Source: Rheinheimera salexigens (GTDB lineage: Bacteria; Pseudomonadota; Gammaproteobacteria; Enterobacterales; Alteromonadaceae). From it: a DNA stretch of 64,000 bases. Positions 36,662 to 54,023 of this stretch are shown piece by piece (within the stretch, counting starts at the first letter, position 1; every line of letters starts with the position of its first letter). Both the position numbers and the translations under genes were made by a program. The stretch lies in NCBI RefSeq assembly GCF_001752395.1, contig NZ_MKEK01000001.1:715244-779243 (forward strand), given 5' to 3'. A model generated the notes under the pieces. That model was not told the origin of the DNA, searched no databases, and saw only the letters and a list, made by a program, of their open reading frames with translations.

Positions 36662-39600
36662 ATGCGACTAAATCGATTTATATCCCCAACCGCGTTTGCG
36701 GTTGCATTGGCGATAGGCAGTGTCCATGCAGCCATAGCGCCAAGCGAACACGAAATTGATATTGATTTATCTGTACTCAAACATGCTGCTGATGATCAGC
36801 AATTACATCCCTACATTGTACAAATTAAAGGTAAAACTGGTATTGAAAAAGCCGCTGAATTGGGCGAGTTATTACCGGCACGACAAAATGTCACCCAAGG
36901 CTTAAACCGTTATAATGCGGCATCGGCTAGCTTGCAGCAATATAATAAAAAACTCACAGAGTTTCACCAACGATTAGCTGCGCAGTCTGGTGGTAGCGAA
37001 GTCCTCTATTCTTATACTCACACCTTTAATGGTTATTCCGCCAAAATGACTGCACAACAAGCAGAGATGCTAAAGCATCATGCTAATGTAGTGGGAGTTT
37101 GGCGCGATGAAGCACAGCAACTCGACACGGCCAATACACCGGCTTTTTTAGGTTTAACCGGTCCTGATGGCCAGCATACTTTAGGCATTAAAGGTGACGA
37201 TGTTGTAATTGGTATCGTTGATACTGGGATCTGGCCAGAGCACCCAAGCTTTGCAGATGATGGTAGTTATGGACCTTTAGCGGGCTGGGCAGGTGCCTGT
37301 GATACCGGTGAAGATGAAGCGTTTAGCTGTAATAATAAATTAATCGGTGCTCGATATTTTAAAAACACTTTTGAGACCGTGTACGATCTTCAACCAGGCG
37401 AATTTGTTTCACCACGTGATGCTGATAATCACGGCTCCCACACCGCTTCTACAGCAGGGGGTAATGAAAACGTAACGGCAGTCTTTAATGGTACAGACGT
37501 CGCGACTATTTCTGGTATTGCGCCGCGAGCGCGTATCGCTGCGTACAAAGCGTGTTGGAATAGTAGCTATGTTAGCCCAGAAGGCGTCGCTGAGCGCGGC
37601 TGTTTCTATGGCGATACTATGGCTGCAATCGATCAAGCAGTAGCTGACGGGGTAGATGTTATTAACTACTCAATAGGTGGCAGTTTAACTGATTTAACTA
37701 CGCTTGCTGCAGCTGCAAAATTACGCGCAGCGCAAGCGGGTGTGTTTGTTGCTGTGTCGGCGGGTAATAGTGGACCTGCAGCCGAAACAGTAGGTACGCC
37801 TGCACCTTGGGTGACCACTGTCGCAGCGTCTACCTATACTGGTTTTAGTGTTGCCAGTGGTATAGAAATAACAATGGGACCGCTTAGTGGCATTTATCGC
37901 GCGCTAGAAGGTGCACAGTCTAAACCATTAAGTGAAACTGGTGATGTTATTGCAGATGTTATCGTAGCTGTGCCTTTAGACGGTTGTTCGGCACTGACTA
38001 ATCCAGCGGCTATCAGCGGTCAGTTTGCTTTAATCCAGCGTGGTGGTTGTAGCTTTGATATTAAATTAGACAATGCCCAAGCTGCTGGTGCAGTGGGTGC
38101 AATTGTTTATAACAATTCGCCGGCATCGCCAATCGTCATGGGGGGGAGCAGCACCACTTTAACCATTCCTGCGGTGATGATCAGCCAAGCAGATGGTAGT
38201 GCTATTAATGCTGAAGTCTCGTCAGGCGCGACAGTTGAAATAAAATTAAGCCCAAGCGTGTTTGTTAATGATGTACCAGAAGTTGGTAATATTATGGCTG
38301 AGTTTTCATCACGAGGCCCTAATATAGCCAGCTTTGATGTTATTAAGCCGGATATTACCGCACCCGGTGTGAAAATATTAGCTGCTGCTTCGTCGCAGCC
38401 AATGCTGTCAGCTCCAGGTCGTGATTTTGTCTATCTGCAAGGTACCTCGATGTCGAGCCCACATATCGCCGGTATGGCTGCTTTACTGAAAGGTGAGCAC
38501 AGCAATTGGACACCAGCGATGATTAAATCAGCGTTGATGACTACCGCTAGACAAAACATTACTAAAGAAGATGGCACTACGCCAGCCGATCCGTTTGATT
38601 TTGGTGCCGGCCATGCTGTACCCGTACAAGCCAATAATCCGGGATTAACTTACGACATTGAAAACTTTGATTACTATGCCTTTTTATGTGGCATTGGTAA
38701 TTCAACCTTTGTGTTAAATTCCAGCGGCTTTAGCTGTGCTGCGTTTGAAGCCGCAGGATACTTAACTGATCCTAGTCAACTTAACTTACCGTCTATTGGT
38801 ATAGCTGAATTAGGCTCTGCACAAACAATATATCGTCAAGTTACAGATGTATCAGGCACGGCTTCTAGTTATAATTTAACCGTGAATGCGCCTAGTGGCA
38901 CCACTGTGACGTTGTTAACCGAAAATGCCAGTGGCGATTTAGCCCCAGGTTCAACGGTTAACGTACCTGCTAATGGTAGCGCTACGTATGCTCTAGTGTT
39001 TACACCCATTTCTGGTGCGCCGTTAGAGCAATGGCAATTCGGTTCGCTGACATTAAGTAATGGTGTTAATAATGTCCGTAGCCCAATAGCCATCAAGCTA
39101 GTTTCACCTGAGCTAATTACGGCTCCAGAAGAAATCAATGGTGTTATTAAAGCTAATCGTGGTCGGTACACTTTCCCTGTATTAATGAACTACAGCGGTC
39201 GTACTAGTACTAGCGTCTCTGGTCTAAGTGAACCATTTGGCTCATCAGCGACTGTAAGTCAAGATACTGATAGAATCTTTAGCTTTAATGAGGCTGGCTT
39301 AGGTACGCATATATTCGTCATCCCTGAAGATGTGCGGGTATTACGCTTTAGTTTATATGAAGCGTTAAGCACTGTGCCTGAAGCGGATTTAGACTTATAC
39401 GTATACCGTTGTATCGCCTTTTCTTGTAGTCCAGTTGGAACTTCATTGCGCGCTGGTGGCAATGAGGAAGTGACCTTGCGCGATCCATTGCCTGCCAATA
39501 ATAGTGCTAACGGTGACTTCTATATTGTTTGGGTGCATGGTTACGACTTGCTAGGTAGTGCCAGCGCTAACTATACCCTTCCGTACTGGGTAGTGGCAGA

Positions 39601-39781
39601 AGATGAAGGTAACGTACGAATAGCTGCGAGTACTCGAGCGATTAATACGCGATATAATAATATCACTATTATGAGCACTGGCTTGACGGCGAGCCCATTT
39701 CCATATCTTGGTGTGATTAAATTCCATGATGAAGATGGCGTAGAGCAAGCTAATACCTTTGTAGAATTAACTGCGCAATAA
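36662..39781 (+). CDS. Large secreted S8 subtilisin-like protease with PA domain
   Basis: Start set at ATG 36662 (SD GGAG six bases upstream); the TTG at 36650 contains that SD. The product of 1039 residues has a signal peptide, an I9-type propeptide (about 45-160, HPYIVQIKG, YTHTFNGYSAKM), and an S8 domain with Asp187 (GIVDTGIWP), His257 (DNHGSHTAST) and Ser596 (GTSMSSPH). A protease-associated domain is inserted between His and Ser (FALIQRGGCSF, about 455-530), as in plant-type subtilases. A fibronectin-like region and a further beta domain (about 860-1039) complete it. It should be an extracellular scavenging protease. There is no visible sorting signal. Confidence 0.93.
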   Translation: MRLNRFISPTAFAVALAIGSVHAAIAPSEHEIDIDLSVLKHAADDQQLHPYIVQIKGKTGIEKAAELGELLPARQNVTQGLNRYNAASASLQQYNKKLTEFHQRLAAQSGGSEVLYSYTHTFNGYSAKMTAQQAEMLKHHANVVGVWRDEAQQLDTANTPAFLGLTGPDGQHTLGIKGDDVVIGIVDTGIWPEHPSFADDGSYGPLAGWAGACDTGEDEAFSCNNKLIGARYFKNTFETVYDLQPGEFVSPRDADNHGSHTASTAGGNENVTAVFNGTDVATISGIAPRARIAAYKACWNSSYVSPEGVAERGCFYGDTMAAIDQAVADGVDVINYSIGGSLTDLTTLAAAAKLRAAQAGVFVAVSAGNSGPAAETVGTPAPWVTTVAASTYTGFSVASGIEITMGPLSGIYRALEGAQSKPLSETGDVIADVIVAVPLDGCSALTNPAAISGQFALIQRGGCSFDIKLDNAQAAGAVGAIVYNNSPASPIVMGGSSTTLTIPAVMISQADGSAINAEVSSGATVEIKLSPSVFVNDVPEVGNIMAEFSSRGPNIASFDVIKPDITAPGVKILAAASSQPMLSAPGRDFVYLQGTSMSSPHIAGMAALLKGEHSNWTPAMIKSALMTTARQNITKEDGTTPADPFDFGAGHAVPVQANNPGLTYDIENFDYYAFLCGIGNSTFVLNSSGFSCAAFEAAGYLTDPSQLNLPSIGIAELGSAQTIYRQVTDVSGTASSYNLTVNAPSGTTVTLLTENASGDLAPGSTVNVPANGSATYALVFTPISGAPLEQWQFGSLTLSNGVNNVRSPIAIKLVSPELITAPEEINGVIKANRGRYTFPVLMNYSGRTSTSVSGLSEPFGSSATVSQDTDRIFSFNEAGLGTHIFVIPEDVRVLRFSLYEALSTVPEADLDLYVYRCIAFSCSPVGTSLRAGGNEEVTLRDPLPANNSANGDFYIVWVHGYDLLGSASANYTLPYWVVAEDEGNVRIAASTRAINTRYNNITIMSTGLTASPFPYLGVIKFHDEDGVEQANTFVELTAQ

Positions 39782-39833
39782 GTTAATTACCTACTAGGTA
39801 TAAAAGATGTAAGTGTTTAATCGTGTAAATTTA

Positions 39834-39868
39834 AAATGCTCAGTCAATTGACTGGGCATTTTTTTTAC
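39834..39868 (+). terminator. Terminator after subtilase gene
   Basis: AAATGCTCAGTCAA pairs with TTGACTGGGCATTT (one T-G pair), followed by a run of eight Ts including the stem end. Confidence 0.93.
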
Positions 39869-39892
39869 TTTTACTTTTACTTTAATTATTGT

Positions 39893-39926
39893 CTGTCATA
39901 TCAGTGTAATAAAACCGTAGCATACT
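39893..39926 (+). promoter_or_regulatory. Pho box and -10 element of pstS
   Basis: CTGTCAT, ATCA, GTGTAAT (39893-39910) has the two 7-bp half-sites and 4-bp spacer of a PhoB site; the first half matches consensus exactly. A -10 like CATACT (39921-39926) starts ten bases later, the standard distance, with the Pho box replacing a -35. Confidence 0.85.
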
Positions 39927-39961
39927 GCAGGCGTTATCTTACCAAAACTTGGGAACTTGAT

Positions 39962-40993
39962 ATGAAACTGCAGACCTTAACACGCATCGCTTTAGCTGCT
40001 TCACTGACAGTTATAAGCATAAACTCCGCTCAGGCCGCCAGTCGCGATACTATTCAAATTGCTGGCTCATCTACCGTTTTACCATTCTCATCTATTGTCG
40101 CTGAAGAATTTGGCCAAAGCTTTGCCCAATTTCGCACCCCTGTAGTAGGCTCTGGTGGTTCATCAGGTGGTTTACGCCAGTTTTGCCAAGGGGTAGGAGC
40201 CAATACAATTGATATTGCCAACTCATCACGTGAAATTCGTCCGAATGAAGTTGCGGCCTGTCATGACAATGGCGTTAAGCAAATTATTGAAGTAAAAATT
40301 GGTTACGACGGTATTGTATTTGCTTCTCGTACTGACGCTGCAATCTTTCACTTACTGCCAGAACATGTGTTTTTAGCCCAAGCTGCGCAAGTACCAGTTC
40401 AAGGCCAAATGGTAGCGAATCCTTATAATCGCTGGTCAGAAATAGATAAGTCGCTGCCTGATCAAGCCATCTTACTGGCTATTCCAGGCTCTAATCACGG
40501 TACTCGTGAAGTGTATGAAGAAAAAGTCGTGTTGCCAGGCTGTAAAACCTTACCTGCGGTAAAAGCCCTAGCTAAAACTGAGCAACATGGCTTTTGCACC
40601 GCTATGCGAACAGATGGCAAAGTAGTTGAAATAGCAGGTGATTATACTGAGACCTTAGCTCGGCTATCGGCACAGAAAGATGCTTTAGGCGTATTTGGCT
40701 TAAGTTTTTATGAAGCCAATCGGGATCGAATTAAAGTCGCTACGGTTTCGGGTGTAGAGCCAAATTTAGACAGTATTTTAAGCGGTGAATATCCGGTGTC
40801 TCGGCCATTATATTTTTATATTAAAGGTGAGCATATTGGTGTGATCCCCGGTTTGCAACAATTCGCCCAGTACTTTGTTAGCGATGTAATGTCTGGTTTT
40901 GATAGTCAATTAGAGCAGGCTGGATTAATTCCACTATCAGATGAAGAGCGCAGTGAAATAACGGCAAAAATAACGCAAAAAGTAGCATTGTAA
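39962..40993 (+). CDS. pstS: Phosphate ABC transporter, periplasmic binding protein
   Basis: Start set at ATG 39962, which opens a clear signal peptide (MKLQTLTRIALAAS to AQA); the longer frame from 39836 runs over the terminator and Pho box. The mature 320 residues have the phosphate-binding IAGSSTVLPFSS near the start, GSGGSSGGLRQFCQG, and NSSREI. It binds inorganic phosphate for the PstCAB transporter. It is longer than E. coli PstS and of the subclass that begins DTIQIAGSSTV. A large hairpin follows before pstC, probably giving more pstS than pstC mRNA. Confidence 0.93.
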   Translation: MKLQTLTRIALAASLTVISINSAQAASRDTIQIAGSSTVLPFSSIVAEEFGQSFAQFRTPVVGSGGSSGGLRQFCQGVGANTIDIANSSREIRPNEVAACHDNGVKQIIEVKIGYDGIVFASRTDAAIFHLLPEHVFLAQAAQVPVQGQMVANPYNRWSEIDKSLPDQAILLAIPGSNHGTREVYEEKVVLPGCKTLPAVKALAKTEQHGFCTAMRTDGKVVEIAGDYTETLARLSAQKDALGVFGLSFYEANRDRIKVATVSGVEPNLDSILSGEYPVSRPLYFYIKGEHIGVIPGLQQFAQYFVSDVMSGFDSQLEQAGLIPLSDEERSEITAKITQKVAL

Positions 40994-41045
40994 AGCTGCT
41001 AGCTGCTGTTCCATTAAGTGCTGGTTTAGTTTGTAATGCTACAAA

Positions 41046-41084
41046 TTTATTGCAGTTTTATGGCTGTAATAAAACTGCAATAAA
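41046..41084 (+). repeat. Perfect 16-bp hairpin between pstS and pstC
   Basis: The arms TTTATTGCAGTTTTAT and ATAAAACTGCAATAAA are exact complements around GGCTGTA. There is no T-run, so it may be a partial terminator or a barrier protecting the pstS message from 3' decay, giving unequal expression of the binding protein and the permease genes. Confidence 0.8.
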
Positions 41085-41173
41085 CCAGCTTTATACTGCT
41101 GCTATACGTTAACTATACCGCTTAGGTTAGGGCTGAAAAGCCTAAAACCATTAAGGTTTACTACGGAGTATTA

Positions 41174-42553
41174 ATGAGTAACCTTACATTACTAATGCTG
41201 TTATTAATATTGATGGCTGTTGGCTATCAACTTGGCATTACACGTAGTCGTAAAGTAGCAACTGCCCATCACGGCATTAAAATGCATTCGCGTAATCATC
41301 ATTACGGTGTAATGGTCGGGTTATGGGCGGTGTTACCCGCTTTTTTACTGTTACTAGTCTGGTTATGGTTAGCACCACAAGCCATTAATGGCTTAATGTT
41401 GGCCCAGTTACCAGCTGATATTAGCAGCCTATCGGCAGATCAACTTAAAGTGGTATCGCAGCGTATTAGCAATTTAGCCAGTAATTTTGCGGTGGTGGAT
41501 GATGCACTGCCCTGGGAACTGGCCGCCGCTGAGCACTTAAAGCAATTGCGCAGTAATAGCGCGCTGGTATTAACCGCCTTAATTGCCGTTATTGCGGCGA
41601 TGGGCTTATTGCTCAGTTTGTATAAAATTACCCCGCGTTTACAAGCTCGGCATCAAGTTGAATCCGCCGTAAAAGTACTGCTTATTCTTTGTTCCGCCGT
41701 AGCAGTGTTAACCACTATTGGCATCGTGTTATCCATGGTGGGTGAAACACTAAAGTTTTTTAGCTTTATTAATCCTGTCGATTTTTTCTTTGGTACCACT
41801 TGGAATCCACGCTTTGCCACAGTAGGCAGTGAAGCCCAAGGAAGCTTTGGTATTTTACCGTTGCTATCAGGTACTTTTTTAATCGCGCTTATTGCCATGC
41901 TAGTGGCTATTCCGCTGGGTTTATTAGTGGCCATTTATTTATCAGAATATGCCTCATTAAAGCTGCGTAATACCGCTAAGCCATTAATTGAAATATTGGC
42001 CGGTATTCCCACTATCGTTTACGGCTTCTTTGCCTTAGTGACGGTGGGACCTTTTCTTAGCCAGTTCGGTACGGCTATTGGCTTAGATATTCGGGCAACG
42101 TCGGCACTGACTGCTGGGGTAGTAATGGGCATTATGATTATCCCGTTTATCTCATCGTTATCAGACGATATTATTACCCAAATACCCAAGTCGTTGCGTG
42201 ATGCTTCATTAGGTTTAGGTGCCACTAAATCTGAAACCATTATTAAAGTAGTACTACCCGCAGCCTTACCAGGCATAGTGGGCGCAGTGCTATTAGCGGC
42301 CAGTCGGGCCATTGGCGAAACCATGATAGTGGTATTAGCTGCGGGTAATAGCCCGGCGTTAACCGCCGATCCGTTTCAAGCCGTCTCTACCGTAACGGTG
42401 ACCATCGTTAATCAATTAACCGGCGATAATGACTTCTCTAGCCCGCAATCGTTAGTAGCGTTTGCCTTAGGCTTAACGTTATTTGTCATTACGTTACTGC
42501 TCAATATTTTCGCCTTAATTATCGTTCGTAAATACCGTGAACAATACGAGTAA
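41174..42553 (+). CDS. pstC: Phosphate ABC transporter permease
   Basis: The 459-residue protein has about eight helices. Two N-terminal ones flank a periplasmic loop (about 80-135), and a canonical PstC permease domain follows (about 225-455) with LAGIPTIVYGFFAL and the coupling loop SLRDASLGLGATKSET. It is longer than E. coli PstC by an N-terminal extension common in marine gammaproteobacteria. SD GGAG lies seven bases before ATG. pstA starts three bases after its stop. Confidence 0.93.
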   Translation: MSNLTLLMLLLILMAVGYQLGITRSRKVATAHHGIKMHSRNHHYGVMVGLWAVLPAFLLLLVWLWLAPQAINGLMLAQLPADISSLSADQLKVVSQRISNLASNFAVVDDALPWELAAAEHLKQLRSNSALVLTALIAVIAAMGLLLSLYKITPRLQARHQVESAVKVLLILCSAVAVLTTIGIVLSMVGETLKFFSFINPVDFFFGTTWNPRFATVGSEAQGSFGILPLLSGTFLIALIAMLVAIPLGLLVAIYLSEYASLKLRNTAKPLIEILAGIPTIVYGFFALVTVGPFLSQFGTAIGLDIRATSALTAGVVMGIMIIPFISSLSDDIITQIPKSLRDASLGLGATKSETIIKVVLPAALPGIVGAVLLAASRAIGETMIVVLAAGNSPALTADPFQAVSTVTVTIVNQLTGDNDFSSPQSLVAFALGLTLFVITLLLNIFALIIVRKYREQYE

Positions 42554-42556
42554 GCT

Positions 42557-43987
42557 ATGACTATGCCTTCAACTAGGCCTTCAGGCCCAAAATCAGTTAA
42601 AACCGCCGACGCTAGCCAGTCGCCAGCACTGTCTGCGGCACAGCAGCAATTACAGCATCAACAAGCGGTGCAGCAAAAAGTACAAGCGTCATTAGCTAAA
42701 CGACACACTAAAGAAAAGTTGTTTCGCCGTTTAGGTTTTTCTGCGGTATTAATTAGCTTAGGTTTAGTAGCAATTCTGTTTATTAATATTTTCTCTAAAG
42801 GTTTACCGGCGTTTTGGCAGTCGAGCATTACCTTAGATATTTATTTCGATCCGGCCATTGTTAAAGTGTCTGATAAACCAGTTAAAACAGCCACTGAATC
42901 AGAGCAAGCATTTCAACAACGTAGCATGCAGTGGCAAACCGAAGTGGGCTTTATTAACTTTAATCGCTTAATCACCAATAGCTTAAAACAAGTATTGCCC
43001 GATGCGAATAAACACCGCCGTGAATTAAGCCGCGTTGTAACCTCGGGTGAGCGTTATGCGCTGCGCGATTTAGTCTTAGCCAACCCAGACATCGTGGGCC
43101 AAACTCGTCGTTTACACTTACTGACCGATGCCAATATTGATGTCTGGCTAAAAGGTAATATTGACCGCAGCTTGCCAGATGAGCAACAGCAGCTAAGTCC
43201 GGTGCTACAACGCTGGGCCGAGCAATTGGCCAAAGAGGGTATTATTCAGAATCGCTTTAGTTTTGCCTTGTTTATGAACCCAGATTCGCGTAGCTCGTTA
43301 GCTTCAGCCGGATTAGCGGGCGCCTTTATGGGCTCATTTTATATGTTGTTAGTGGTGATATTATTGGCCGTGCCAATGGGCGTAGCGGCGGCAATATATT
43401 TAGAAGAGTTTGCACCGCAAAACCGTTTTACCGATTTAGTTGAAGTCAATATTAATAACTTAGCCGCTGTGCCATCCATTGTATTTGGTTTACTTGGCGC
43501 GTCGGTATTAATAGGTTGGTTTAACTTGCCCATGTCGGCGCCCATTGTCGGCGGTATTGTTTTGTCATTAATGACCTTGCCTACGGTAATTATCGCGACT
43601 CGTTCTACTTTAAAAGCCATTCCACCATCAATTAGACAAGCGGCACTGGGACTAGGGGCGTCAAAAATGCAGGCGGTGTTCCATCATGTATTACCTCTGG
43701 CTATCCCCGGTATATTAACCGGCGCTATTTTAGGTGTTGCCCAAGCCTTAGGTGAAACCGCACCGCTACTACTAATCGGTATGAAGTCTTTTGTCGCATC
43801 AGTACCGGCTACCCCCTTTGAGCAATCAACCGCGCTGCCAGTGCAAATTTTCTTATGGCAAGGTAATGAATTGCGTAACTTTTTTGAAGCCAGAACCTCA
43901 GCTGCCATCATAGTGCTTTTAGTCATGATGTTAAGTTTAAATGGTATTGCTATTTTCTTACGTAAAAAATTCCAACGTAATTGGTAA
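42557..43987 (+). CDS. pstA: Phosphate ABC transporter permease
   Basis: The 476-residue protein has a Gln-rich cytoplasmic N-terminus, one helix at about 55-78, a 170-residue periplasmic insert, then the permease domain (about 255-470) with NLAAVPSIVFGLLG and the coupling loop IRQAALGLGASKMQA. The length is well above E. coli PstA (296), but the fold at the C-terminus is unmistakable. It pairs with PstC. Confidence 0.92.
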   Translation: MTMPSTRPSGPKSVKTADASQSPALSAAQQQLQHQQAVQQKVQASLAKRHTKEKLFRRLGFSAVLISLGLVAILFINIFSKGLPAFWQSSITLDIYFDPAIVKVSDKPVKTATESEQAFQQRSMQWQTEVGFINFNRLITNSLKQVLPDANKHRRELSRVVTSGERYALRDLVLANPDIVGQTRRLHLLTDANIDVWLKGNIDRSLPDEQQQLSPVLQRWAEQLAKEGIIQNRFSFALFMNPDSRSSLASAGLAGAFMGSFYMLLVVILLAVPMGVAAAIYLEEFAPQNRFTDLVEVNINNLAAVPSIVFGLLGASVLIGWFNLPMSAPIVGGIVLSLMTLPTVIIATRSTLKAIPPSIRQAALGLGASKMQAVFHHVLPLAIPGILTGAILGVAQALGETAPLLLIGMKSFVASVPATPFEQSTALPVQIFLWQGNELRNFFEARTSAAIIVLLVMMLSLNGIAIFLRKKFQRNW

Positions 43988-44033
43988 CGTATTAACTACT
44001 AAGCATTAAATTGCAATAAAAGTGGATATCTTA

Positions 44034-44852
44034 ATGAACAACATTCAGTCTAAAACTCAACCTACAACGGCAACAGTACCTGACACAGTGCCTGACACAG
44101 TTAAAATAGCGGCCAAAGACGTCAAAGTGTTTTACGGCCAAAACCAAGTGCTGCACGGCATTAATATGGATGTGCATGCAAACGAAGTGATCTCGTTTAT
44201 TGGTCCGTCAGGCTGTGGTAAATCCAGTTTTCTGCGTTGTATGAATCGGATGAACGATACCATTGAAGGCTGTCGGGTCGAGGGGCAAATTTTGTTAGAC
44301 CAACGGGATATCAATGCGGCCAATATCGATGTAGTGCAATTACGTGCGCAGGTAGGCATGGTGTTTCAAAAGCCGAATCCGTTTCCAAAATCGATTTATG
44401 AAAATATCGCTTATGGCCCCAAATTACACGGCTTAGCCCAGCGTAAAGCCGATTTAGACGATATTGTAGAATCTAGCTTGCGCCGTGCGGGTTTGTGGCA
44501 AGAAGTGAAAGATCGCTTAGATCAGCCTGGCACCGGTTTATCCGGCGGTCAGCAGCAACGTTTATGTATTGCTCGCAGCATTGCGGTTAGCCCTGAAATA
44601 ATCTTAATGGATGAACCTTGTTCGGCGTTAGATCCCATCGCAACCTCAATTATTGAAGAGCTAATTGATGAGCTAAAACAAAATTTCACCATCGTCATTG
44701 TTACCCACAATATGCAGCAAGCAGCGCGAGTATCAGATCGCACGGCGTTTTTTCATCTGGGGCAAGTGATTGAAATTGGCAATACCAATGAGCTATTTAC
44801 CAACCCAAAACAAAAACGTACCGAAGACTATATTACCGGCCGCTATGGCTAA
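44034..44852 (+). CDS. pstB: Phosphate ABC transporter ATPase
   Basis: ATG 44034 is preferred: GTGGAT just upstream may be part of its SD, and the GTG at 44022 is the alternative start. The 272-residue ATPase shows [46 protein letters not shown] and [12 protein letters not shown], a full PstB set. The N-terminal tail holds a short duplication (VPDTVPDTV) from a 12-base direct repeat. It powers phosphate import. Confidence 0.96.
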
Positions 44853-44923
44853 GCCAACTGTTCAAGTAGGCCGCTTAAAAGGCCTTACCCAATTAGGTTA
44901 GGTTAATAAAGGAGTATTAGATT

Positions 44924-45649
44924 ATGCCCAATAGTAAAATCGGCCGCCATTATTCCCAAGCTTTTGATACCGAGTTACAACAAGCGGTGGATCGTTTGCT
45001 ACAAATGGCTGCTTTAACTCAGCAGCAGTTAACGGATGCCATAGCCGCTTTTGTTGAAGCTGATCATGCTCGTGCTGAGCAAGTGGTAGCCAGCGACCAT
45101 AGAGTAAATGACTTTGAAGTTGATATTGATGAACATTGTCTGGATATCTTAGCCCGCCGCCAACCCGCTGCTAGTGACTTGCGCTTAGTATTAACGGTAT
45201 TAAAAAGCATTAACGATATTGAACGTATTGGCGATTTAGCCAAGCGGGTAGCAAAAACCTTATTAGAACAAGCCGATACGGACAGGCCTAATCAAGCGCA
45301 ACTAGATGAAATAGATGTCATGGGCCATCGCGTATTGCATATGTTACAACGCGCTTGTGTCAGTTTTGAGCGGATGGACGCAACAGATGCTCTTACGGTA
45401 CTGCGCAAAGATAAAGAGATTGATCAAGATTACGATCGTATTGTGGCGCAAAGCATTAGCGCCATGAGCAATGACAGCAGCCAAGTCGGCCCTAGCATGC
45501 AGCTATTTGTTATCGCCCGAGCGTTAGAGCGTATTGGCGATCATAGCCGTAATATTTGCCAGCATGTTATTTTTCTCTGCAAAGGGCGTAATGTAGCGCA
45601 TTTTAGCGATGCCGAATTACAGCAGATTGTCGATAAGCAGCGCAGTTAA
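44924..45649 (+). CDS. phoU: Phosphate signalling protein
   Basis: The 241-residue helical protein has two PhoU repeats with the metal-site signatures RIGDLAKRVAK near residue 102 and RALERIGDHSRNIC near 205. It couples the Pst transporter to PhoR, keeping PhoB off when phosphate is plentiful. The SD GGAG stands eight bases before ATG. The gene is last in the pst operon, with a terminator shared with the opposite TonB gene. Confidence 0.96.
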   Translation: MPNSKIGRHYSQAFDTELQQAVDRLLQMAALTQQQLTDAIAAFVEADHARAEQVVASDHRVNDFEVDIDEHCLDILARRQPAASDLRLVLTVLKSINDIERIGDLAKRVAKTLLEQADTDRPNQAQLDEIDVMGHRVLHMLQRACVSFERMDATDALTVLRKDKEIDQDYDRIVAQSISAMSNDSSQVGPSMQLFVIARALERIGDHSRNICQHVIFLCKGRNVAHFSDAELQQIVDKQRS

Positions 45650-45698
45650 CTTAACGCTAAAATCTCAGTGTAACAAAGAAAGTAAAGCAGCTTAAATT

Positions 45699-45742
45699 AA
45701 AAAGGTTTGCCACTTTGACTTATAGTGACAAACCTTTTTTTT
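45699..45742. terminator. Two-way terminator between phoU and TonB receptor gene
   Basis: AAAAAGGTTTG and CAAACCTTTTT form the stem base, with CCACT/AGTG pairing inside. A-run and T-run on both sides suit convergent transcription. Confidence 0.9.
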
Positions 45743-45789
45743 ATGGCTGAATTTTTTAAGCGCTTATGCATCGATAAGCGCATATTGGT

Positions 45790-48447
45790 TTAAAAGTTAT
45801 AGCTTAGGCTTAAACTATAGTCTTGGCCTTCGGCTCGACGTTGTAATATTTGGCCTTGCTGTAATATTTCGACATCTTGATCTAGCAAGTTTTTCGCGGC
45901 TAGTTTCAAGCTTAAATTCTCGCTTGGCGTATAGCTATAGGTTAAATCTAACGAGTTAAACGGTTGCTCATAGGCATCATCTTTATCATTCACACCGGCA
46001 AAAGCGATGCGCTTGCCAAACACATTATAAGTTAGCGTGGCATGGTGCTGATCGTTATCGGCGTCATAACCAAGCTGCATATTTAACACATATTTAGAAT
46101 GGCCACTTAGCCCGCGTTTGCTATGAGTCAGGTTTGCGCCAGGTAACGGCTGAATGCTGATTTCAGAGTCACTTAAGGTTAGGTTCGATGCCAGATAAAA
46201 GTTGTCAGCAACGTCGCCCAGTTGACCACTAAACATATCCAGTTGTTGCAATACTTCAGCTTCAATACCGTAAATTTTGCCACCTTGAGCATTACGGAAC
46301 GACATTAACAAATTACCGTCGGAGCCCGATAACTCTATGGCTTCTATTGGCTTAGATAAGTCTTTATAAAATACGCCAACGCTATAGTTACTATTATCTT
46401 GATACCATTCTAAGCGCGCTTCAGCGCTATTAATATCGGTGCTTGTTAGTCCAGCATAACCGGTCACTTTAAACTCGGTTAATGGGTCTAGGTACAGCAC
46501 TGGCGTGACTTCACGTAAGTCGGGTCTTACCACGGTTTTGCTATAACCAAATCTAGCTTGTAGCTCATCATTAATAAACCAAGTTAATGATAAAGCAGGG
46601 TAAAAGTCTTGCTCTACTAGTACAGAATCTAACACGTTACCGCTAATATCACCGTTGGCATTTAAGGGTAATGACAGTTGTTTAAAGTCTTCGTAGCGCA
46701 GACCAAGGTTTATTTTAAATAAGTAATCATAATTAATTTCTATGGCAGCATAGCCAGCATCAATAATCTGCGCGGCGACATAATCATCGGCTTGCGTAGT
46801 TACGTTAGAAATTTTAAAGCCATTGCTGCTGTTGCTGATATTGGTATCAGAGAAAATGTCACTAAAACCGTCAGTAAGCTGGGATAGGCTAAAGCCTAAT
46901 GTATCAAAATTAAATAAATTGGTTTCGGCATGTCTATTGCGCTGAAAATTGGCGTAACCACCACTGAATAATAATTCAGCTTTGCCTATGTTTGCTGGTA
47001 ACGAAAAGTTTAGATTGGCACTTTTGGTTCGATCGTTCATATCGCTAAAACTGTAATTAACCGCGTTTTGATTACGGCGTAAAAAGGATTGTACGCTGCC
47101 GTCACTTTGCTGCTCGTTTAAATAGCGAAAATCCACCTCACCTGGTGCATCACGGCGAGCTTTTGCTTGGGTATACTGCCAATCTAGCGCTAAACCGGCG
47201 ATATCATCTAACTGGTGCTGGCCGCGTATTTGTTGGCTAATAAGGCTGCGTTCTTCATAGCGAATGCTGGTATCGGTATTGTTGCGATTAGGCTCATTAA
47301 TCGTTTCAATACTATCGCCTTGCTTAATTTTAATTTCATCTTTGCTATCAAGCAGGTACAAGCTAGTGGTTTCAATGCGGTGAGCGGGAGTAAATTCAAC
47401 ACCAAAATTTAGCATGCCAGATAATTTAACCTGATGCTCGGTACCGCTAATGTCATCATAGCGATTTAGAGGCACTAAATTGTCACCAGAAACAGAATAA
47501 TAGCGCTCTTGTTGCTCAATATTGTCGGTAGCGCGGCTATAACTTAAGCCTGACATCATACCAAACACGATGTCATCACTGATGCTATAGCGATCACCAA
47601 AAGATACGCTGGCATTTAAATCAGGCTCAACGTCACTAGAACGTATAGCAATATCGCGATTAAAGGCTAAACCTAAATTACGCAGCTCGGTATCAGCAGC
47701 GGCAAGGTTGGCTGCGGTAATTCCGCCGTTAGCTTGGGCAATAGTAGTGCGAGTAATAGTGCCATATTGCTGCAATGCCGACTGTAATAACGGTGACATG
47801 GCACGCGTGCCGTCGTCTTTACCTCGCCAGTCATCAGCACCGCCACTATACACATAACCGTCCTCATTATTTAGGCTGTTATAACCGGTGCCTAAGGCCA
47901 TACTAAAACTGGTTTGGCGGGGAATGCTCACGGTGCGAATATTAACATTACCGCCACCAAAGGCCGCGGGTAAATCTGGCGAGTAAGCTTTTTGCACCAC
48001 TAAGCTGTCGATAATGCCAGCAGGAAACATATCTAATGGCATGACATTACGAGTAGGATCGGGACTAGGTACCATAGCGCCATTAAGTAAGGTGCTTGAA
48101 TAACGCTCGCCTAAGCCTCTGACATATATAAATTTATCTTTTACTAAGGTAAGGCCCGTGACTCGGCGCAACGCTGTCGCCGCATTGCTATCACCTGCGC
48201 GGGCAATTTGTTCCATGCCCAACACTTCTGCCACATAGGTATGCTCACGCCGCTCGGCAGCCGCTGAGGCAGCAGAACTAATTAAGCGACCAGTAATGGC
48301 AATATGTTCTATCTGGTCTGGCGCTGCTGCAACAGCAACACTCTGTTCAGCAAAGGTGGCTAAGGATATAAAGGTTGTAGCCGATGTCAGCGCTAGCAGT
48401 ACACTGCGACTGACACGACTAAAAGTTAAGGCTTGTTTGCTGCTCAT
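45790..48447 (-). CDS. TonB-dependent receptor, likely phosphate-starvation induced
   Basis: The 885-residue protein has a signal peptide with a long n-region, a plug with IYVRGLGERYSSTLLNGA, FPAGIIDSLVVQKAYSPDLP and AAFGGGNVNIRT, and a barrel ending SLSLSYNF. Receptors with this RGLGERY plug often accompany a beta-helix lipoprotein, as here: the lipoprotein gene ends 89 bases upstream on the same strand with no terminator. The pair sits between pst and phoBR and has a Pho box in front of the lipoprotein gene. It likely takes up a phosphorus compound too large for porins, such as a phosphoester or nucleic-acid fragment; that is inference. Confidence 0.88.
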   Translation of the reverse strand: MSSKQALTFSRVSRSVLLALTSATTFISLATFAEQSVAVAAAPDQIEHIAITGRLISSAASAAAERREHTYVAEVLGMEQIARAGDSNAATALRRVTGLTLVKDKFIYVRGLGERYSSTLLNGAMVPSPDPTRNVMPLDMFPAGIIDSLVVQKAYSPDLPAAFGGGNVNIRTVSIPRQTSFSMALGTGYNSLNNEDGYVYSGGADDWRGKDDGTRAMSPLLQSALQQYGTITRTTIAQANGGITAANLAAADTELRNLGLAFNRDIAIRSSDVEPDLNASVSFGDRYSISDDIVFGMMSGLSYSRATDNIEQQERYYSVSGDNLVPLNRYDDISGTEHQVKLSGMLNFGVEFTPAHRIETTSLYLLDSKDEIKIKQGDSIETINEPNRNNTDTSIRYEERSLISQQIRGQHQLDDIAGLALDWQYTQAKARRDAPGEVDFRYLNEQQSDGSVQSFLRRNQNAVNYSFSDMNDRTKSANLNFSLPANIGKAELLFSGGYANFQRNRHAETNLFNFDTLGFSLSQLTDGFSDIFSDTNISNSSNGFKISNVTTQADDYVAAQIIDAGYAAIEINYDYLFKINLGLRYEDFKQLSLPLNANGDISGNVLDSVLVEQDFYPALSLTWFINDELQARFGYSKTVVRPDLREVTPVLYLDPLTEFKVTGYAGLTSTDINSAEARLEWYQDNSNYSVGVFYKDLSKPIEAIELSGSDGNLLMSFRNAQGGKIYGIEAEVLQQLDMFSGQLGDVADNFYLASNLTLSDSEISIQPLPGANLTHSKRGLSGHSKYVLNMQLGYDADNDQHHATLTYNVFGKRIAFAGVNDKDDAYEQPFNSLDLTYSYTPSENLSLKLAAKNLLDQDVEILQQGQILQRRAEGQDYSLSLSYNF

Positions 48448-48536
48448 CTGAAAGTCATCCTATCAGCTTTAAAAAGTAGGGTGCTGCAATCACTTTTCAT
48501 GCAGCACCGAAAGTGAACGTTATTTGCTGTTATGGA

Positions 48537-49958
48537 TTAGTCGGTAAAACCTATAGTCCAGCCTTGAGTCCAGTCATTGCTGCCATCAAAAGCGCCAATG
48601 TAATTAACGGCATCAAACCAACCGTCCACGTTATTGCTAACGTCATAGCCATTGTTCAGAGCAGGAGAGGTCGCTTGTGGCATATAGCCAGTTAGCATGG
48701 CGTCGGTGACTAAGTTACCAGGCTGGGCTAAAAACCAAGCTTGCGCATCTAAGGTCACGTTTTTATTGCCATCAACGGTGTTTTTAAAGGCTTCAGGACA
48801 ATCGATAATGGAGTTGCGGATTAAGATTTCACCATTATTAGCGTTAGCCACCGACTCATCGCTATTAATTTCCAAACATTCGCCCATACCGGTAGGGCCG
48901 GTAACAATCATGTTATACAACTCTCCGGCAGTACCCGCGCGCAGTAGCACACCTTCAGAGTCGTCTTCGCCATCAAAGGCATTGCCAATAATGGTGATAT
49001 TAGCAATGCGTGGCTTACTAACGGGCTCGGCCGTAAAGTTACCCGATTGGTTATCGGCTTCTATACCACGGTTAGCTTTAGTGTTATTAGGATTATGCTT
49101 AATTAACACGTGCTGCATGCGGCCTGTCCAACCATCCGCCCAGTCTAGTGAGTCGTCTTGATTGCCGGTTAATACCACATATTTAGCATCTACCGTGCCA
49201 CCAAAAAATTCGACACCGTCATCTAAATTATTATGCACTTGGATATATTCCACTGCAGTGCCACGGCCAACACCGGCAAAGGTAATACCGTTTAGCTCGT
49301 TATCTGGAATAACTTCATAACCGGCATAACGCACTTGTAAGTACTTTAATGCGCCACTACTATCGTCTGGGTTAGCACCACCATAAGGGCCAGCTTCGCC
49401 TTCAGACTCTACTTGGCAGTTGGCTAAATCGGCTTGGTTACACTTGTTAGTAGGCGCCTTGCCTAATAACACTAAGCCACCCCATTCTGCGCTAGACTCA
49501 TCATTCGACAGTCCCAACATATCGTTAACAGATGTCATAATAATCGGCTCTGCTGCTGTACCCACGGCATTAATTTTAGAGCCGCGGGCCACCACTAAAT
49601 AATCGGCTCCACTTTTACCAAAGACCGAGGTGCCTGGCGCTATGCTTAAGGTGGCGCTATTGGCATTATCGTTACCTACCACCACTTTGCCGTTAAGTGA
49701 CCAGAGAATATCGGCACTTAAGCGCGCATCTGCGGTGATGGTGCCAGTCAGTTCACATACTGGTTTATCATTGCCGGTTAACTTAGCGCCTTCAGTAGCA
49801 AATGCTGGGCAGCTGCTAGTAGGTGGCGTTGTGCCACCGCCGTCACTATTGCCACCGTTGCCATTACCGCCTGTATTAAGAATCACATCACCACCACAGC
49901 CGGCCAAAAATAGGGCGGTAGTAATAGCGCTAAGTTTCATTAAGTTTGCTAAAGCCAT
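48537..49958 (-). CDS. Surface/periplasmic lipoprotein with predicted beta-helix, Pho-linked
   Basis: The 473-residue protein has a lipoprotein signal (LFLAGCGGD), a Gly/Asn-rich linker (NTGGNGNGGNSDGGG) and a repetitive beta-rich body with many DDG, GNQDD and GVEFFGG turns like a right-handed beta-helix. Four Cys outside the lipobox (CPAF/VCELT, NKCNQADLANCQ) could form disulfides. Start at ATG 49958 has the SD GGAG eight bases upstream. It precedes the TonB receptor in one operon and is probably its partner, holding or presenting ligand at the outer membrane. I cannot name a family. Confidence 0.8.
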   Translation of the reverse strand: MALANLMKLSAITTALFLAGCGGDVILNTGGNGNGGNSDGGGTTPPTSSCPAFATEGAKLTGNDKPVCELTGTITADARLSADILWSLNGKVVVGNDNANSATLSIAPGTSVFGKSGADYLVVARGSKINAVGTAAEPIIMTSVNDMLGLSNDESSAEWGGLVLLGKAPTNKCNQADLANCQVESEGEAGPYGGANPDDSSGALKYLQVRYAGYEVIPDNELNGITFAGVGRGTAVEYIQVHNNLDDGVEFFGGTVDAKYVVLTGNQDDSLDWADGWTGRMQHVLIKHNPNNTKANRGIEADNQSGNFTAEPVSKPRIANITIIGNAFDGEDDSEGVLLRAGTAGELYNMIVTGPTGMGECLEINSDESVANANNGEILIRNSIIDCPEAFKNTVDGNKNVTLDAQAWFLAQPGNLVTDAMLTGYMPQATSPALNNGYDVSNNVDGWFDAVNYIGAFDGSNDWTQGWTIGFTD

Positions 49959-50033
49959 GGTTATTTCTCCGTTGTATTTTTATGGGTGCAAGTACTAGGT
50001 TTAAATTAACTGCACGCAGCCTAGCGCAGAGAA

Positions 50034-50051
50034 ATGACATTTTTATGACGG
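50034..50051 (-). promoter_or_regulatory. Pho box before the lipoprotein-TonB operon
   Basis: Read on the minus strand the site is CCGTCAT, AAAA, ATGTCAT: two 7-bp half-sites 11 bp apart, close to the PhoB consensus. A weak -10 like TAGGCT follows after ten bases. It lies 76 bases before the lipoprotein start. Confidence 0.8.
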
Positions 50052-50114
50052 AAAAATTACGATATAAAAACGGGCTACATTGCCATTGCGGGATAAGGTA
50101 ATATAAAGCTAACC

Positions 50115-50150
50115 GTTTCATAAAACTGTCATAATGTGCAGTGATACTAA
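50115..50150 (+). promoter_or_regulatory. Pho box and -10 of phoBR
   Basis: GTTTCAT, AAAA, CTGTCAT (50115-50132) is a near-consensus PhoB site, and a -10 like TACTAA lies at 50145-50150. It indicates positive autoregulation of phoBR. Confidence 0.85.
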
Positions 50151-50198
50151 GCAACATAAGTATTTAAAATAAGTATTTACGAAAGCTTGAGGAACCCA

Positions 50199-50885
50199 AT
50201 GTCCAGACGCATTTTGATTGTGGAAGATGAAGCACCCATCCGGGATATGTTAAGTTTTGTGGTTGAACAAAATGGCTATCAAGCCGATACCGCCGCCGAT
50301 TATGATGAGGCAATACTGGCCATCGTAGAGCCTTATCCGGATCTTATTTTACTGGACTGGATGCTACCGGGTGGTAGCGGCATTCAAATTGCCAAGAAAA
50401 TGAAACAACATGAAATCACCCGCAATATTCCGATTATTATGATCACCGCGCGCGGTGAAGAAGAAGATAAAGTTCGTGGCTTAGAAGTGGGTGCTGATGA
50501 CTATGTGACTAAGCCCTTTTCGCCTAAAGAGCTGATGGCGCGGATCAAGGCCGTTATTCGTCGCGTGTCACCTACTAGCTTAGATGATACGATTACTATT
50601 CAAGGCTTAGTGTTAGATCCGGTGTCGCATCGGGTCACTGCCAACGGTACGGCACTAGAGATGGGGCCTACCGAATTTCGGTTATTACACTTTTTTATGA
50701 CCCATACCGAGCGCGTATACAGCCGTGAACAGTTGCTAGATCAAGTGTGGGGCACCAATGTCTATGTCGAAGATCGCACCGTAGATGTGCATATTCGCCG
50801 CTTACGCAAAGCGATTTCTCATGCTGAACATGACAAACTCATTCAAACCGTACGGGGCTCTGGCTACCGTTTTTCAGCTAAATAA
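50199..50885 (+). CDS. phoB: Phosphate regulon response regulator
   Basis: ATG 50199 follows the SD GAGGAA; the TTG at 50187 overlaps that SD and is rejected. The 228-residue protein has a receiver domain ([11 protein letters not shown], phospho-acceptor Asp in [13 protein letters not shown], Lys in YVTKPF) and an OmpR-type winged helix ([39 protein letters not shown]). This is full-length PhoB, which activates genes with Pho boxes, three of which are seen in this window. Confidence 0.96.
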
Positions 50886-50899
50886 GGTTAACCACGCCC

Positions 50900-52186
50900 A
50901 TGCGCCAATTGCTGTCTAAAAAGAAGGTTTACAGCAAAGTACTATTGTTATTTTGTTTTATCGGTGTGGTGGGTTTTTTGTCGAATAGTGCCTTAGCGGC
51001 CTTACTGATTTTAAGTGTCGCTTTATTGCTGTGGCACTATCATCATTTATTTTTACTAGATAAATGGTTATGGCGCGATCGCAAACTATCCCCGCCGTTA
51101 AGCGAGGGAGTTTGGGGTAATTTATTTGAAGGCTTCTATTATCAACAGCGTAAAGAGCGGCGCAAGCAACGTTTGTTACGCGATACAGTTCGCCGCTTTC
51201 GGGATGGTGCGGAAGCTTTACCTCAAGCGGTAGTGGTGTTAACAACCGATTGGGCCATAATTTGGTGCAATAAGCTGGCGCAAATGCTAATAGGTTTACA
51301 CTGGCCAGATGACGAAGGTCAGCGTTTACATAATCTTATTCGCCATCCTGATTTTTTAAGCTATCTAAAACAGCTTAATTTTAGCCAACCATTAGAGCTC
51401 GCTTCACCGATTAATGAACAGTTGGTCCTAGAGTTTAATATCGTACCTTACGGTGCTGAACAATATTTATTAACCGTGCGCGATATCAGCCAACTTAAAC
51501 AGCTAGAGCAAGTTCGCAAAGATTTTGTCGCCAATGTATCGCATGAGTTACGTACGCCATTAACGGTATTACAAGGTTATTTAGAATTAATGGACGACGA
51601 GAGTGTGCCAGATGAGAAAATTTGGCGCAAAGCTCACACGGTAATGTTAGAACAAACAAAGCGTATGGATGGGCTGGTTCAGCAATTATTAACGCTATCG
51701 AGAATAGAGGCCTCAGCCCGAGTGCAATTTGAAGATAAAGTGGATGTACCTGCGATGCTGGCGCAATTAAAGCTTGAAACCGAAAGCTTAAATCAAGAAA
51801 AGCAGCATCATATTCAGTTTAAAATTGATAATAGTTTGTATGTTACTGGTGTAAGCGAAGAGCTACGCAGTGCCTTTTCTAATTTAGTCATTAATGCCAT
51901 TAAATACACGCCAGCCGGTGGCGACATTCAAATCAGTTGGCAGCGCCAGCATTTGAGCGCGCTATTTTCGGTAATCGATAATGGCGAAGGCATAGCACCG
52001 CAACATGTGAAACGCTTAACCGAACGCTTTTACCGAGTAGACCAAGCACGGGCTAGAAACACCGGTGGCACCGGCTTGGGTTTAGCTATTGTTAAACACG
52101 TATTATCACGCCACAACAGTCGGTTAATGATTTTTAGTGAACCAGGCCAGGGCAGTCGTTTTAGCTTTACCTTACCCGCGGAGTGA
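50900..52186 (+). CDS. phoR: Phosphate regulon sensor histidine kinase
   Basis: The 428-residue kinase has two adjacent N-terminal helices (about 12-50), a short cytoplasmic charged patch, a PAS domain (about 100-205), the H-box FVANVSHELRTPLTVL with His near 216, N-box LVINAIKYTP, and G-boxes DNGEGIA and GTGLGLAIVK. This is the PhoR layout. It starts 14 bases after phoB and is cotranscribed with it. Confidence 0.96.
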   Translation: MRQLLSKKKVYSKVLLLFCFIGVVGFLSNSALAALLILSVALLLWHYHHLFLLDKWLWRDRKLSPPLSEGVWGNLFEGFYYQQRKERRKQRLLRDTVRRFRDGAEALPQAVVVLTTDWAIIWCNKLAQMLIGLHWPDDEGQRLHNLIRHPDFLSYLKQLNFSQPLELASPINEQLVLEFNIVPYGAEQYLLTVRDISQLKQLEQVRKDFVANVSHELRTPLTVLQGYLELMDDESVPDEKIWRKAHTVMLEQTKRMDGLVQQLLTLSRIEASARVQFEDKVDVPAMLAQLKLETESLNQEKQHHIQFKIDNSLYVTGVSEELRSAFSNLVINAIKYTPAGGDIQISWQRQHLSALFSVIDNGEGIAPQHVKRLTERFYRVDQARARNTGGTGLGLAIVKHVLSRHNSRLMIFSEPGQGSRFSFTLPAE

Positions 52187-52270
52187 GTGCAGCTAAAGCT
52201 TGCTTAGCAAGGGTTGGTTTTTTAGAATGAAGCAAAGGCTTAACAGCAAACTAAAAAGCAAGGTGAAGCG

Positions 52271-53320
52271 ATGCACGGTGAATATAAGGTACCAGGCGGC
52301 AAGTTAGTGGTTGCAGATGTAGCAGTGCAACAGGATATATTAAGCCAAGTCAGTATTTCCGGTGACTTCTTCTTAGAACCAGATAGCGCGTTAACCCGCA
52401 TTAACCAAGCCCTTACAGGCTTACCTAGCAGCGCTAGCCATAAAACCCTTACCACAGCTATTCAACAAGCGCTCGACGACGATGTGGTGATGTTTGGTTT
52501 CTCTGCAGAAGCAGTCGCCACCGTAGTTCGGCGTGCTTTAGGCCATGCCAGTAGTTGGCTTGATCATCAATTTACCCTGATCCCGCCGGTTACTTTACCA
52601 GCAGTTGAGCATGTCGCGTTAGACGAAGTGATAGCCAACTCGGTAGCGAGAGGTTTACGCGGGCCCACATTACGATTTTGGGATTGGGATGACTCTGTAG
52701 TGGTGATAGGCTGTTTTCAATCGGTAAAGAACGAAATAGATATGCCGGCAGCAAAAAATGCCGATATAAAAGTGGTGCGCCGAATAACAGGTGGCGGTGC
52801 CATGTTTATGGAACCAGGCAACTGCATTACGTATTCGTTAACGGTGCCAACATCGATAGTAGATGGCATGAGCATTGAACAGTCATATCAGTTTTTAGAC
52901 GCTTGGGTGTTGGCAGCTTTAGCGGAAGTCGGCATTAACGCTCACTATAAACCGTTAAATGATATTGCGTCTGACCAAGGTAAAATAGGCGGTGCGGCCC
53001 AAAAACGCTTTGCTAGCGGGGTGTTAGTTCACCATGCCACTTTGGCATACAATATAGACGCTAACAAAATGCTGCAGGTGTTACGTATTGGCCGAGAAAA
53101 ACTCTCTGATAAAGGCATTACCAGCGCGAACAAGCGAGTCGACCCCATGCGCAGCCAAACGGGCTTAACTCGAGCCGCCATTATCGACGCTTTTATTCAG
53201 CACTTTTCTAAAAACTACCCAACCCAAACAGGACAGTATTTGCCGCAAGAACTTGGCAGCGCTAAAACACTAGTCACCGAGAAGTATTTAAGCCAAGAGT
53301 GGTTGTACAAAGTGCAGTAG
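52271..53320 (+). CDS. Lipoate-protein ligase-like enzyme with reversed domain order
   Basis: The first 70 residues (GEYKVPGGKLVVADVAV) resemble the accessory C-terminal domain of LplA, here placed at the N-terminus. From about 105 follows the BPL/LplA catalytic domain: LRFWDWDDSVVVIGCFQ, VRRITGGGAMFMEPGN, and the lysine in GKIGGAAQKRF that contacts the lipoyl-AMP in the family. It would attach lipoate, or octanoate, to E2 or GcvH domains. The exact acyl substrate and cofactor cannot be read. SD AAGGTGA lies five bases before ATG. It stands alone between phoR and a convergent RDD gene. Confidence 0.85.
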   Translation: MHGEYKVPGGKLVVADVAVQQDILSQVSISGDFFLEPDSALTRINQALTGLPSSASHKTLTTAIQQALDDDVVMFGFSAEAVATVVRRALGHASSWLDHQFTLIPPVTLPAVEHVALDEVIANSVARGLRGPTLRFWDWDDSVVVIGCFQSVKNEIDMPAAKNADIKVVRRITGGGAMFMEPGNCITYSLTVPTSIVDGMSIEQSYQFLDAWVLAALAEVGINAHYKPLNDIASDQGKIGGAAQKRFASGVLVHHATLAYNIDANKMLQVLRIGREKLSDKGITSANKRVDPMRSQTGLTRAAIIDAFIQHFSKNYPTQTGQYLPQELGSAKTLVTEKYLSQEWLYKVQ

Positions 53321-53328
53321 GGCTCTGG

Positions 53329-53874
53329 TTAGCGCGCGTTTTTATACAGGTTTAAGGCCCGGCTTTGCTGTTTAGTTAACACCACCATTTGGGTGTGGCT
53401 TAGCTGGTCTTGTAAGGCTAAGCCTTTACCCCAACGGATTAACAACCACAAGTTACCCAGCCCCAACAAAGCGGTTAAGGCGCGGATAGCCGCTTGCTTT
53501 AAAGTAACCGGTCGGCCATCTTGCTGCACTAATAGAACACGCCAACTGCGCATACCTAGGGTTTGGCCGCCTTTGCACCAAAAATATAAATAAAAGCCTA
53601 TAAACAGTGCTAAAGAATATAGCTGAAACCAAATTTTATGATCCGCTATATAAGCCGCCGGGTCGGCATAATTGGCAAAAGAAATTACCCCAGCGCTATT
53701 AAGCAAGGCCACTAGCCCCAGTCCCAAAGCCATGGCGAGCATCCATAAGGCAATTAAGATTAACCAGTCATAAAACATTGCCGCTAACCGCCGCCATAAA
53801 CCAGCGCGAGGTGCGACAGCAAATTCAGAATAAGAATGAGATAAAGACTCAGAGCTATGCATAATACAACCCAT
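53329..53874 (-). CDS. RDD family membrane protein
   Basis: The 181-residue protein has the RDD pattern: RLAAMFYDWLIL with Arg and Asp in the first helix, and a later TLGMRSWRVLLVQQDGRP segment. Three to four membrane helices are visible. The start may also be ATG 53862; neither has a clear SD. RDD proteins are small membrane proteins of unsure role, some being linked to sodium/proton exchange or protein targeting. Confidence 0.85.
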   Translation of the reverse strand: MGCIMHSSESLSHSYSEFAVAPRAGLWRRLAAMFYDWLILIALWMLAMALGLGLVALLNSAGVISFANYADPAAYIADHKIWFQLYSLALFIGFYLYFWCKGGQTLGMRSWRVLLVQQDGRPVTLKQAAIRALTALLGLGNLWLLIRWGKGLALQDQLSHTQMVVLTKQQSRALNLYKNAR

Positions 53875-53965
53875 AATAAAAATCGCGGCAAGTGTAACAT
53901 GCAGCCAACTTATTTCGAAGCTGCTGTAATTTTAGCCAAGCAAATAAATTAACAGAGAAATTATG

Positions 53966-53993: not shown

Positions 53994-54023
53994 GCCAGCG
54001 TTTACTGCAAAAAATCCCTCAGT

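Follow-up and report, generated by a model that had tools for sequence, protein, structure and literature searches.

A lipoprotein and TonB-dependent receptor of the ElpS/CC0171 kind in the predicted phosphate regulon of Rheinheimera salexigens

The window studied here, a 64,000-nucleotide stretch of the Rheinheimera salexigens contig NZ_MKEK01000001.1 (positions 715,244 to 779,243 of the forward strand), contains a lipoprotein gene and an adjacent gene for a TonB-dependent receptor located between the pst genes and phoBR. This pair is a member of the already described and under-studied ElpS/CC0171 kind, and its predicted control by PhoB as a lipoprotein-receptor unit is well supported by promoter conservation. 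Uptake of a phosphorus compound across the outer membrane by the pair is plausible, and we consider it probable that the whole mechanism proposed below, that of a phosphate-starvation unit of the ElpS/CC0171 type, is correct. The gene order across 39962-52186 is pstS, pstC, pstA, pstB and phoU on the plus strand, the TonB-dependent receptor and the lipoprotein on the minus strand, and phoB and phoR again on the plus strand (Table 1), and open reading frames (ORFs), family scans and tblastn bear out an earlier note on this DNA, made from its letters alone, that had placed the receptor pair between pst and phoBR.

A Pho box is composed of two direct repeats of 7 bp, separated by 4 bp (consensus CTGTCAT-N4-CTGTCAT), with a -10 element about 10 bp downstream. 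The earlier note had drawn attention to three such 7-4-7 sites, preceding pstS, phoB and the lipoprotein gene, all of which were confirmed with two mismatches each, and each of the three is followed, on the same strand and at a distance of 10 nt, by a -10-like hexamer. Hence, the lipoprotein box has both the repeat arrangement and the -10 spacing of a PhoB-regulon motif. With up to two mismatches, exactly these three sites are found in the 64-kb window, as compared to a mean of 0.27 in Markov shuffles, three being reached in 1/60 shuffles, and with up to three mismatches 10 sites are present against 3.3 expected, a number reached in 1/100 shuffles. A fourth box, overlooked in the earlier note, precedes pstC and scores at least 10/14 in 12/12 relatives scored, and given this recurrence pstCAB-phoU probably has a PhoB promoter of its own, as judged from sequence. 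The box before phoB scores at least 11/14 in 27/27 relatives scored, and that before pstS could be scored in two relatives only, with 12/14 in both. For the lipoprotein strand a standard scan listed no promoter of sigma-70 type, and in the lipoprotein promoter region it listed two terminator-like matches that overlap each other, against a chance mean of 1.8 for this region.

The evidence that carries the regulatory assignment comes from phylogenetic footprinting in 79 loci with a lipoprotein homologue, 70 of which have a recognisable start and were scored for the best match of 14 positions in the interval between 130 and 25 bp upstream of the lipoprotein start, with other upstream regions as controls and with related species counted more than once in the resulting figures. 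Among Idiomarinaceae/Alteromonadales, 18/19 loci have a box of at least 11/14 (controls 10/186) and likewise 18/19 one of at least 10/14 (controls 23/186). Since phoB is nearby in just 1/19 of these loci, the lipoprotein box does not simply reflect the phoB promoter. Boxes of at least 10/14 are also found in all 28 loci of the Rheinheimera group (36/171 controls), in 5/6 alphaproteobacterial loci (0/61 controls), in 5/9 SAR86 loci (3/57 controls) and in 3/8 loci of other gammaproteobacteria (5/86 controls). In the sites printed for relatives the spacing to the -10 is retained, two examples being TAAAGT (Pseudidiomarina) and TAAGAT (SAR86). Thus, the placement of the pair in the phosphate regulon, as the earlier note had it, is well supported, the box persisting in lineages in which phoB is not a neighbour of the pair.

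The predicted structure of the lipoprotein is a right-handed beta-helix (predicted local distance difference test, pLDDT, 90), an assignment that rests on VIA-align and the strand pattern and that agrees with the guess of a beta-helix made from sequence. In a Foldseek search this model returned nothing at E <= 0.001, the best match being Pel9A at 2.7e-3. No Pfam family was found at E 1e-3 in a Pfam copy searched without PF28492, the SusD Pfam domains were not detected, NCBIfam and PDB sequence searches gave no match, and a profile search of PDB gave a single match to a centrosomal protein with E 0.42. Two homologue searches listed 120 homologues each, and these carry PF28492. Homology to the ElpS domain is indicated by 34% identity over 459 columns (4e-65) with a Brevundimonas protein, itself a homologue of the lipoprotein at L181, a lipoprotein-receptor-T2SS locus (T2SS, type II secretion system); the link to CC0170 rests on gene order and the published description, with direct alignment only to this Brevundimonas relative. 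Over 62 sequences nine charged residues are invariant, each of them Asp or Glu, and the lipoprotein has an acidic cluster at D246/D247/D268/D269/D272. The lipobox pattern is present in 70/79 loci, and the nine misses are made up of four sequences that start at a contig end (L121, L122, L128, L140) and five with AAAC or ASGC, outside the pattern (L129, L134, L136, L138, L143).

The number of domains per lipoprotein gene varies from one in the window, in Rheinheimera D18 and in Pseudidiomarina to two in most relatives and three in L114, L116, L118 and L124, and the length of the Brevundimonas proteins corresponds to a single domain. In a 41-row domain tree the window domain groups with the first domains of relatives, independent duplications having occurred in several lineages, and hence the single domain of the window is best read as the loss of a second one. 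A recombinant origin of this domain from D1 and D2 was rejected, since in each of 11 blocks it resembles D1 of L070 more closely than D2.

The receptor has both the plug and the beta-barrel domain of TonB-dependent receptors and a predicted structure with their fold, and it is 32% identical (1e-112) to the receptor of the alphaproteobacterial locus L181; against TIGR01782 (TonB-Xanth-Caul) it scores 211.4 bits, below the cut-off of 310. A receptor gene adjoins the lipoprotein gene on the same strand in 78/79 loci, downstream in 73 and upstream in five (L143-L147), and in the exception, L131, the contig ends within the gene. The five loci with the receptor upstream form a divergent branch, three of them from Halioglobus, with Pho scores of 8-9/14 in the four that were scored, and this branch is perhaps a paralogue with another use. 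The T2SS genes gspD, E and F, mostly with G, follow the pair on the same strand in 15/46 distant loci searched, several of the remaining ones being on short contigs and loci L069-L113 lying outside this search; the call was confirmed by Pfam for one secretin and two T2SSE proteins. Among the window ORFs of 36000-55000, inspected by eye, no T2SS gene was seen. ElpS-type homologues are present in 30/299 sampled Pseudomonadota genomes, including that of the window itself (3.44 Mb), and by lipoprotein the closest named records belong to Rheinheimera, Arsukibacterium and Alishewanella. Several loci of SAR86, a group abundant in the ocean, have the pair next to homologues of phoB and phoR.

The kind of system to which the pair belongs is known from two groups of bacteria, so that the remark in the earlier note that no description was known is wrong as to kind. 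According to a 2010 paper on Caulobacter, the gene order there is cc0170 (elpS), cc0171 (TonB-dependent receptor) and gspC-N, ElpS is a surface-exposed lipoprotein induced in phosphate starvation, the T2SS aids its cleavage and release, its overproduction leads to higher secreted alkaline phosphatase activity, and CC0171 was found together with ElpS in stalk extracts (PMC2996285). Shared with the window are the LAGC lipobox (17-20 there, 18-21 here), a size of about 50 kDa, the adjoining receptor gene, control by phosphate starvation, which for the window is a predicted one, and, in distant relatives of the window, the lipoprotein-receptor-T2SS order; unlike in Caulobacter, the window pair lies between pst and phoBR and no T2SS gene was seen adjoining it, and CC0171 was reported as constitutive. 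The Caulobacter PhoB regulon includes the T2SS and various TonB receptors, and the available part of that account does not state whether elpS/cc0171 belong to it (PMC11208175). In Flavobacterium, the lipoproteins FI, FII and FIII have been described as low-phosphate proteins with strong induction, FI and FII having adjacent TonB receptors that are likewise strongly induced, and in F. johnsoniae these are Fjoh_3856 with receptor Fjoh_3857 (FI) and Fjoh_0546 with receptor Fjoh_0545 (FII, in the phoBR cluster) (PMC8115612, 2020). They are reported to be 31-36% identical over 50-54% to the Caulobacter lipoprotein and are likened to that of the window by description; they differ in coming from another phylum and in that pf13715, listed for their receptors, was not found in the window receptor (PMC8115612). 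SusC/SusD and PusC/PusD share with the system proposed for the window a TonB receptor and a surface lipoprotein for capture and import, while SusD has the Pfam models pf07980 and pf14322 (PMC8115612) and the window lipoprotein has a beta-helix model and no Pfam match. With the pectate-lyase-like right-handed beta-helices Pel9A, NosD and AlgE only the predicted fold is shared, and they differ from the window lipoprotein by the lack of any detectable sequence relation and of a conserved catalytic base in the latter. For Rheinheimera BAL341, changes in pstS in low-nutrient medium are reported, and a term search of the main text of that paper found neither 'TonB' nor 'lipoprotein' (PMC9305737). 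In a literature search that reached few subscription journals, no paper was listed that deals with the Rheinheimera pair or with the ligand.

One of the structural features of the window pair is the 89-nt gap between lipoprotein and receptor genes, which holds a terminator-like hairpin. This hairpin ends 23 nt before the receptor ATG and hence leaves no space for a full promoter after it. The 106-nt stretch that includes it has a folding z of -2.25, equalled in 5/200 shuffles, and the standard terminator scan, restricted to loops of 3-8, did not list it because of its 11-nt loop. Terminator-like hairpins are found in 29/29 gaps of the Rheinheimera group, as against 1.2% of shuffles preserving single-base composition only, and the stems vary in sequence between species with the pairing kept. 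Among gaps of 45-300 nt in other groups, a hairpin is present in 5/10 alphaproteobacterial gaps, 2/3 of other gammaproteobacteria and 3/14 of Idiomarinaceae/Alteromonadales, and the two SAR86 genes abut or nearly so. Attenuation giving an excess of lipoprotein over receptor may be read from this arrangement, and it would also fit the unlike expression reported for the two genes in Caulobacter. The hairpin's weight as evidence is lowered by the occurrence of similar ones in about 45 of 109 further same-strand gaps that these loci contain (0.413) and by their absence from 11/14 Idiomarinaceae/Alteromonadales and 5/10 alphaproteobacterial gaps. Accordingly, the lipoprotein-TonB operon of the earlier note holds insofar as the genes are adjacent on the same strand, and the hairpin in their gap makes it a possibly attenuated one.

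In the mechanism proposed, PhoR would phosphorylate PhoB when phosphate is scarce, and PhoB would bind at 50034-50051 and recruit RNA polymerase to the TAGGCT -10, a regulation for which conservation gives strong support. The beta-helix lipoprotein would be lipidated at Cys21 and presumably exposed at the outer membrane, where it would outnumber the receptor if the hairpin lets only a part of the transcripts pass. There it may capture a phosphorus-bearing ligand via the invariant acidic and probably metal-binding patch and hand it to the TonB-dependent receptor, by which it would be imported for periplasmic phosphatases and PstSCAB, the likeliest ligand being a polymer or an ester whose size keeps it from passing through porins. 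Several observations weigh against this proposal. Because of the hairpin, co-transcription of the lipoprotein and receptor genes is not assured, and in Caulobacter cc0171 was reported as constitutive by reverse-transcription polymerase chain reaction while elpS was induced, and elpS deletion left phosphatase activity unchanged (PMC2996285). The lipoprotein is missing from 9/30 genomes of the same genus, and one more has only a 35% homologue. The controls of the Rheinheimera group are not clean, with at least 11/14 in 23/171 as compared to 19/28 loci, and at this threshold the signal is weaker in SAR86 (4/9), alphaproteobacteria (2/6) and other gammaproteobacteria (2/8). In the whole genome, 268 sites with three mismatches stand against 236 for the reversed pattern, which is near chance, and therefore consensus counting alone was rejected as evidence and footprinting in relatives was used instead.

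These near-chance counts, together with the location of lipoprotein and phoB boxes within one 240-bp intergenic region, would favour a reading in which the box at 50034-50051 is a mere by-product of the phoB promoter and the pair, not regulated by phosphate, imports something unrelated. We regard this as highly improbable, because a separate -10 accompanies the box on the lipoprotein strand, because the box is kept in lineages with the pair away from phoB, and because low phosphate is reported to induce related lipoproteins in Caulobacter and in Flavobacterium (PMC2996285, PMC8115612). An unlikely reading, though the strongest of the rivals, follows the original proposal for ElpS: the lipoprotein, on the surface or released, would be an accessory factor enhancing phosphatase activity outside the cell, and the receptor would have another or a sensing role. 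The overproduction phenotype and T2SS-assisted release of ElpS (PMC2996285), the T2SS genes that follow the pair in a third of the distant loci searched and the excess of lipoprotein suggested by the hairpin are in line with it; it is opposed by the Caulobacter deletion result, by the near-universal pairing with a receptor and by the lack of a T2SS gene adjoining the window pair on inspection by eye. Still less likely is that the lipoprotein is an enzyme of pectate-lyase-like fold cutting a phosphorylated or cell-wall polysaccharide before import, as no Lys, Arg or His is invariant in the 62 sequences (R125 in 61, H242 in 55), no catalytic base is evident and all nine invariant charged residues are acidic; the beta-helix fold is also found in binding proteins, and the lipoprotein has no sequence relative in PDB. 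PhoB-controlled capture and import of a phosphorus compound by the pair thus remains the reading that we prefer.

Extra genes in the loci of nine relatives, with six proteins scanned, offered no constant clue to the substrate, the families found being porins (PF07396, PF13609), a further receptor, OmpW and a GH16 protein. Between receptor and pstB, some relatives carry a phosphate-selective porin (PF07396) together with OmpW and a two-component pair (L075:15501-20447). Among the genome sites listed, two have one mismatch: C1:706952, which overlaps a second site and is followed by a general porin (PF13609) and then by another TonB receptor (L189:3953-7289), and C1:3142230, which was dismissed as regulatory as it sits within the 5' part of a 481-aa ORF. 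An overlapping Pho-like pair at C1:782278 was likewise dismissed, being within a 1277-aa ORF. Immediately 5' of pstS, at 36650-39781 on the plus strand, there is a large S8 peptidase with PA and fn3 domains, of which a partial match adjoins pst also in locus L081. For pstS, which scores 127.9 bits with TIGR02136, below the cut-off of 206.6, ATG 39962 is the more likely start, the mechanical ORF opening at 39836, and for phoB ATG 50199 is more likely than TTG 50187.

Table 1. Coordinates of the features discussed, in window positions
Feature	Position	Strand	Basis or details
Candidate Pho box of lipoprotein-receptor unit, CCGTCAT AAAA ATGTCAT	50034..50051	-	2 mismatches
-10-like hexamer TAGGCT for lipoprotein Pho box	50023-50018	-	10 nt downstream
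ElpS-type putative surface lipoprotein, 473 aa	48537..49958	-	homology, model; LAGC lipobox with Cys21; one right-handed beta-helix domain
Terminator-like hairpin	48471..48508	-	own definition; 9-bp stem and 11-nt loop (48480-48508), U tract (48471-48475)
TonB-dependent receptor, CC0171-type, 885 aa	45790..48447	-	plug PF07715 and barrel PF00593; model
Pho box of pstS, CTGTCAT ATCA GTGTAAT	39893..39910	+	2 mismatches; -10-like CATACT 39921-39926
pstS, periplasmic phosphate-binding protein	39962..40993	+	PF12849 3.5e-46 (scanned from 39959)
Pho box before pstC	41064..41081	+	3 mismatches
pstC	41174-42553	+	resemblance and order; tblastn-conserved in relatives
pstA	42557-43987	+	as pstC
pstB	44022-44852	+	as pstC
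phoU	44924-45649	+	as pstC
Pho box of phoB, GTTTCAT AAAA CTGTCAT	50115..50132	+	2 mismatches; -10-like GATACT 50143-50148
phoB	50199..50885	+	TIGR02154 366.3 bits, above cut-off 296.2
phoR	50900..52186	+	NF008235 564 bits, above cut-off 390

In a wider and tentative extension, in which we place little confidence, ElpS-type beta-helix lipoproteins would form a separate class of surface-capture proteins unrelated to SusD, in which the all-acidic patch holds metal that binds phosphorylated polymers, a dedicated TonB receptor performs the import, an intergenic attenuator keeps the lipoprotein in excess and one to three domains tune avidity. New here are the intergenic hairpin and the variation in the number of lipoprotein domains per gene (one, two or three), and the window locus, whose lipoprotein has a single domain, offers the simplest form for testing function. 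If the pair imports organic or polymeric phosphorus, it would represent an acquisition route that is missing from current gene inventories.

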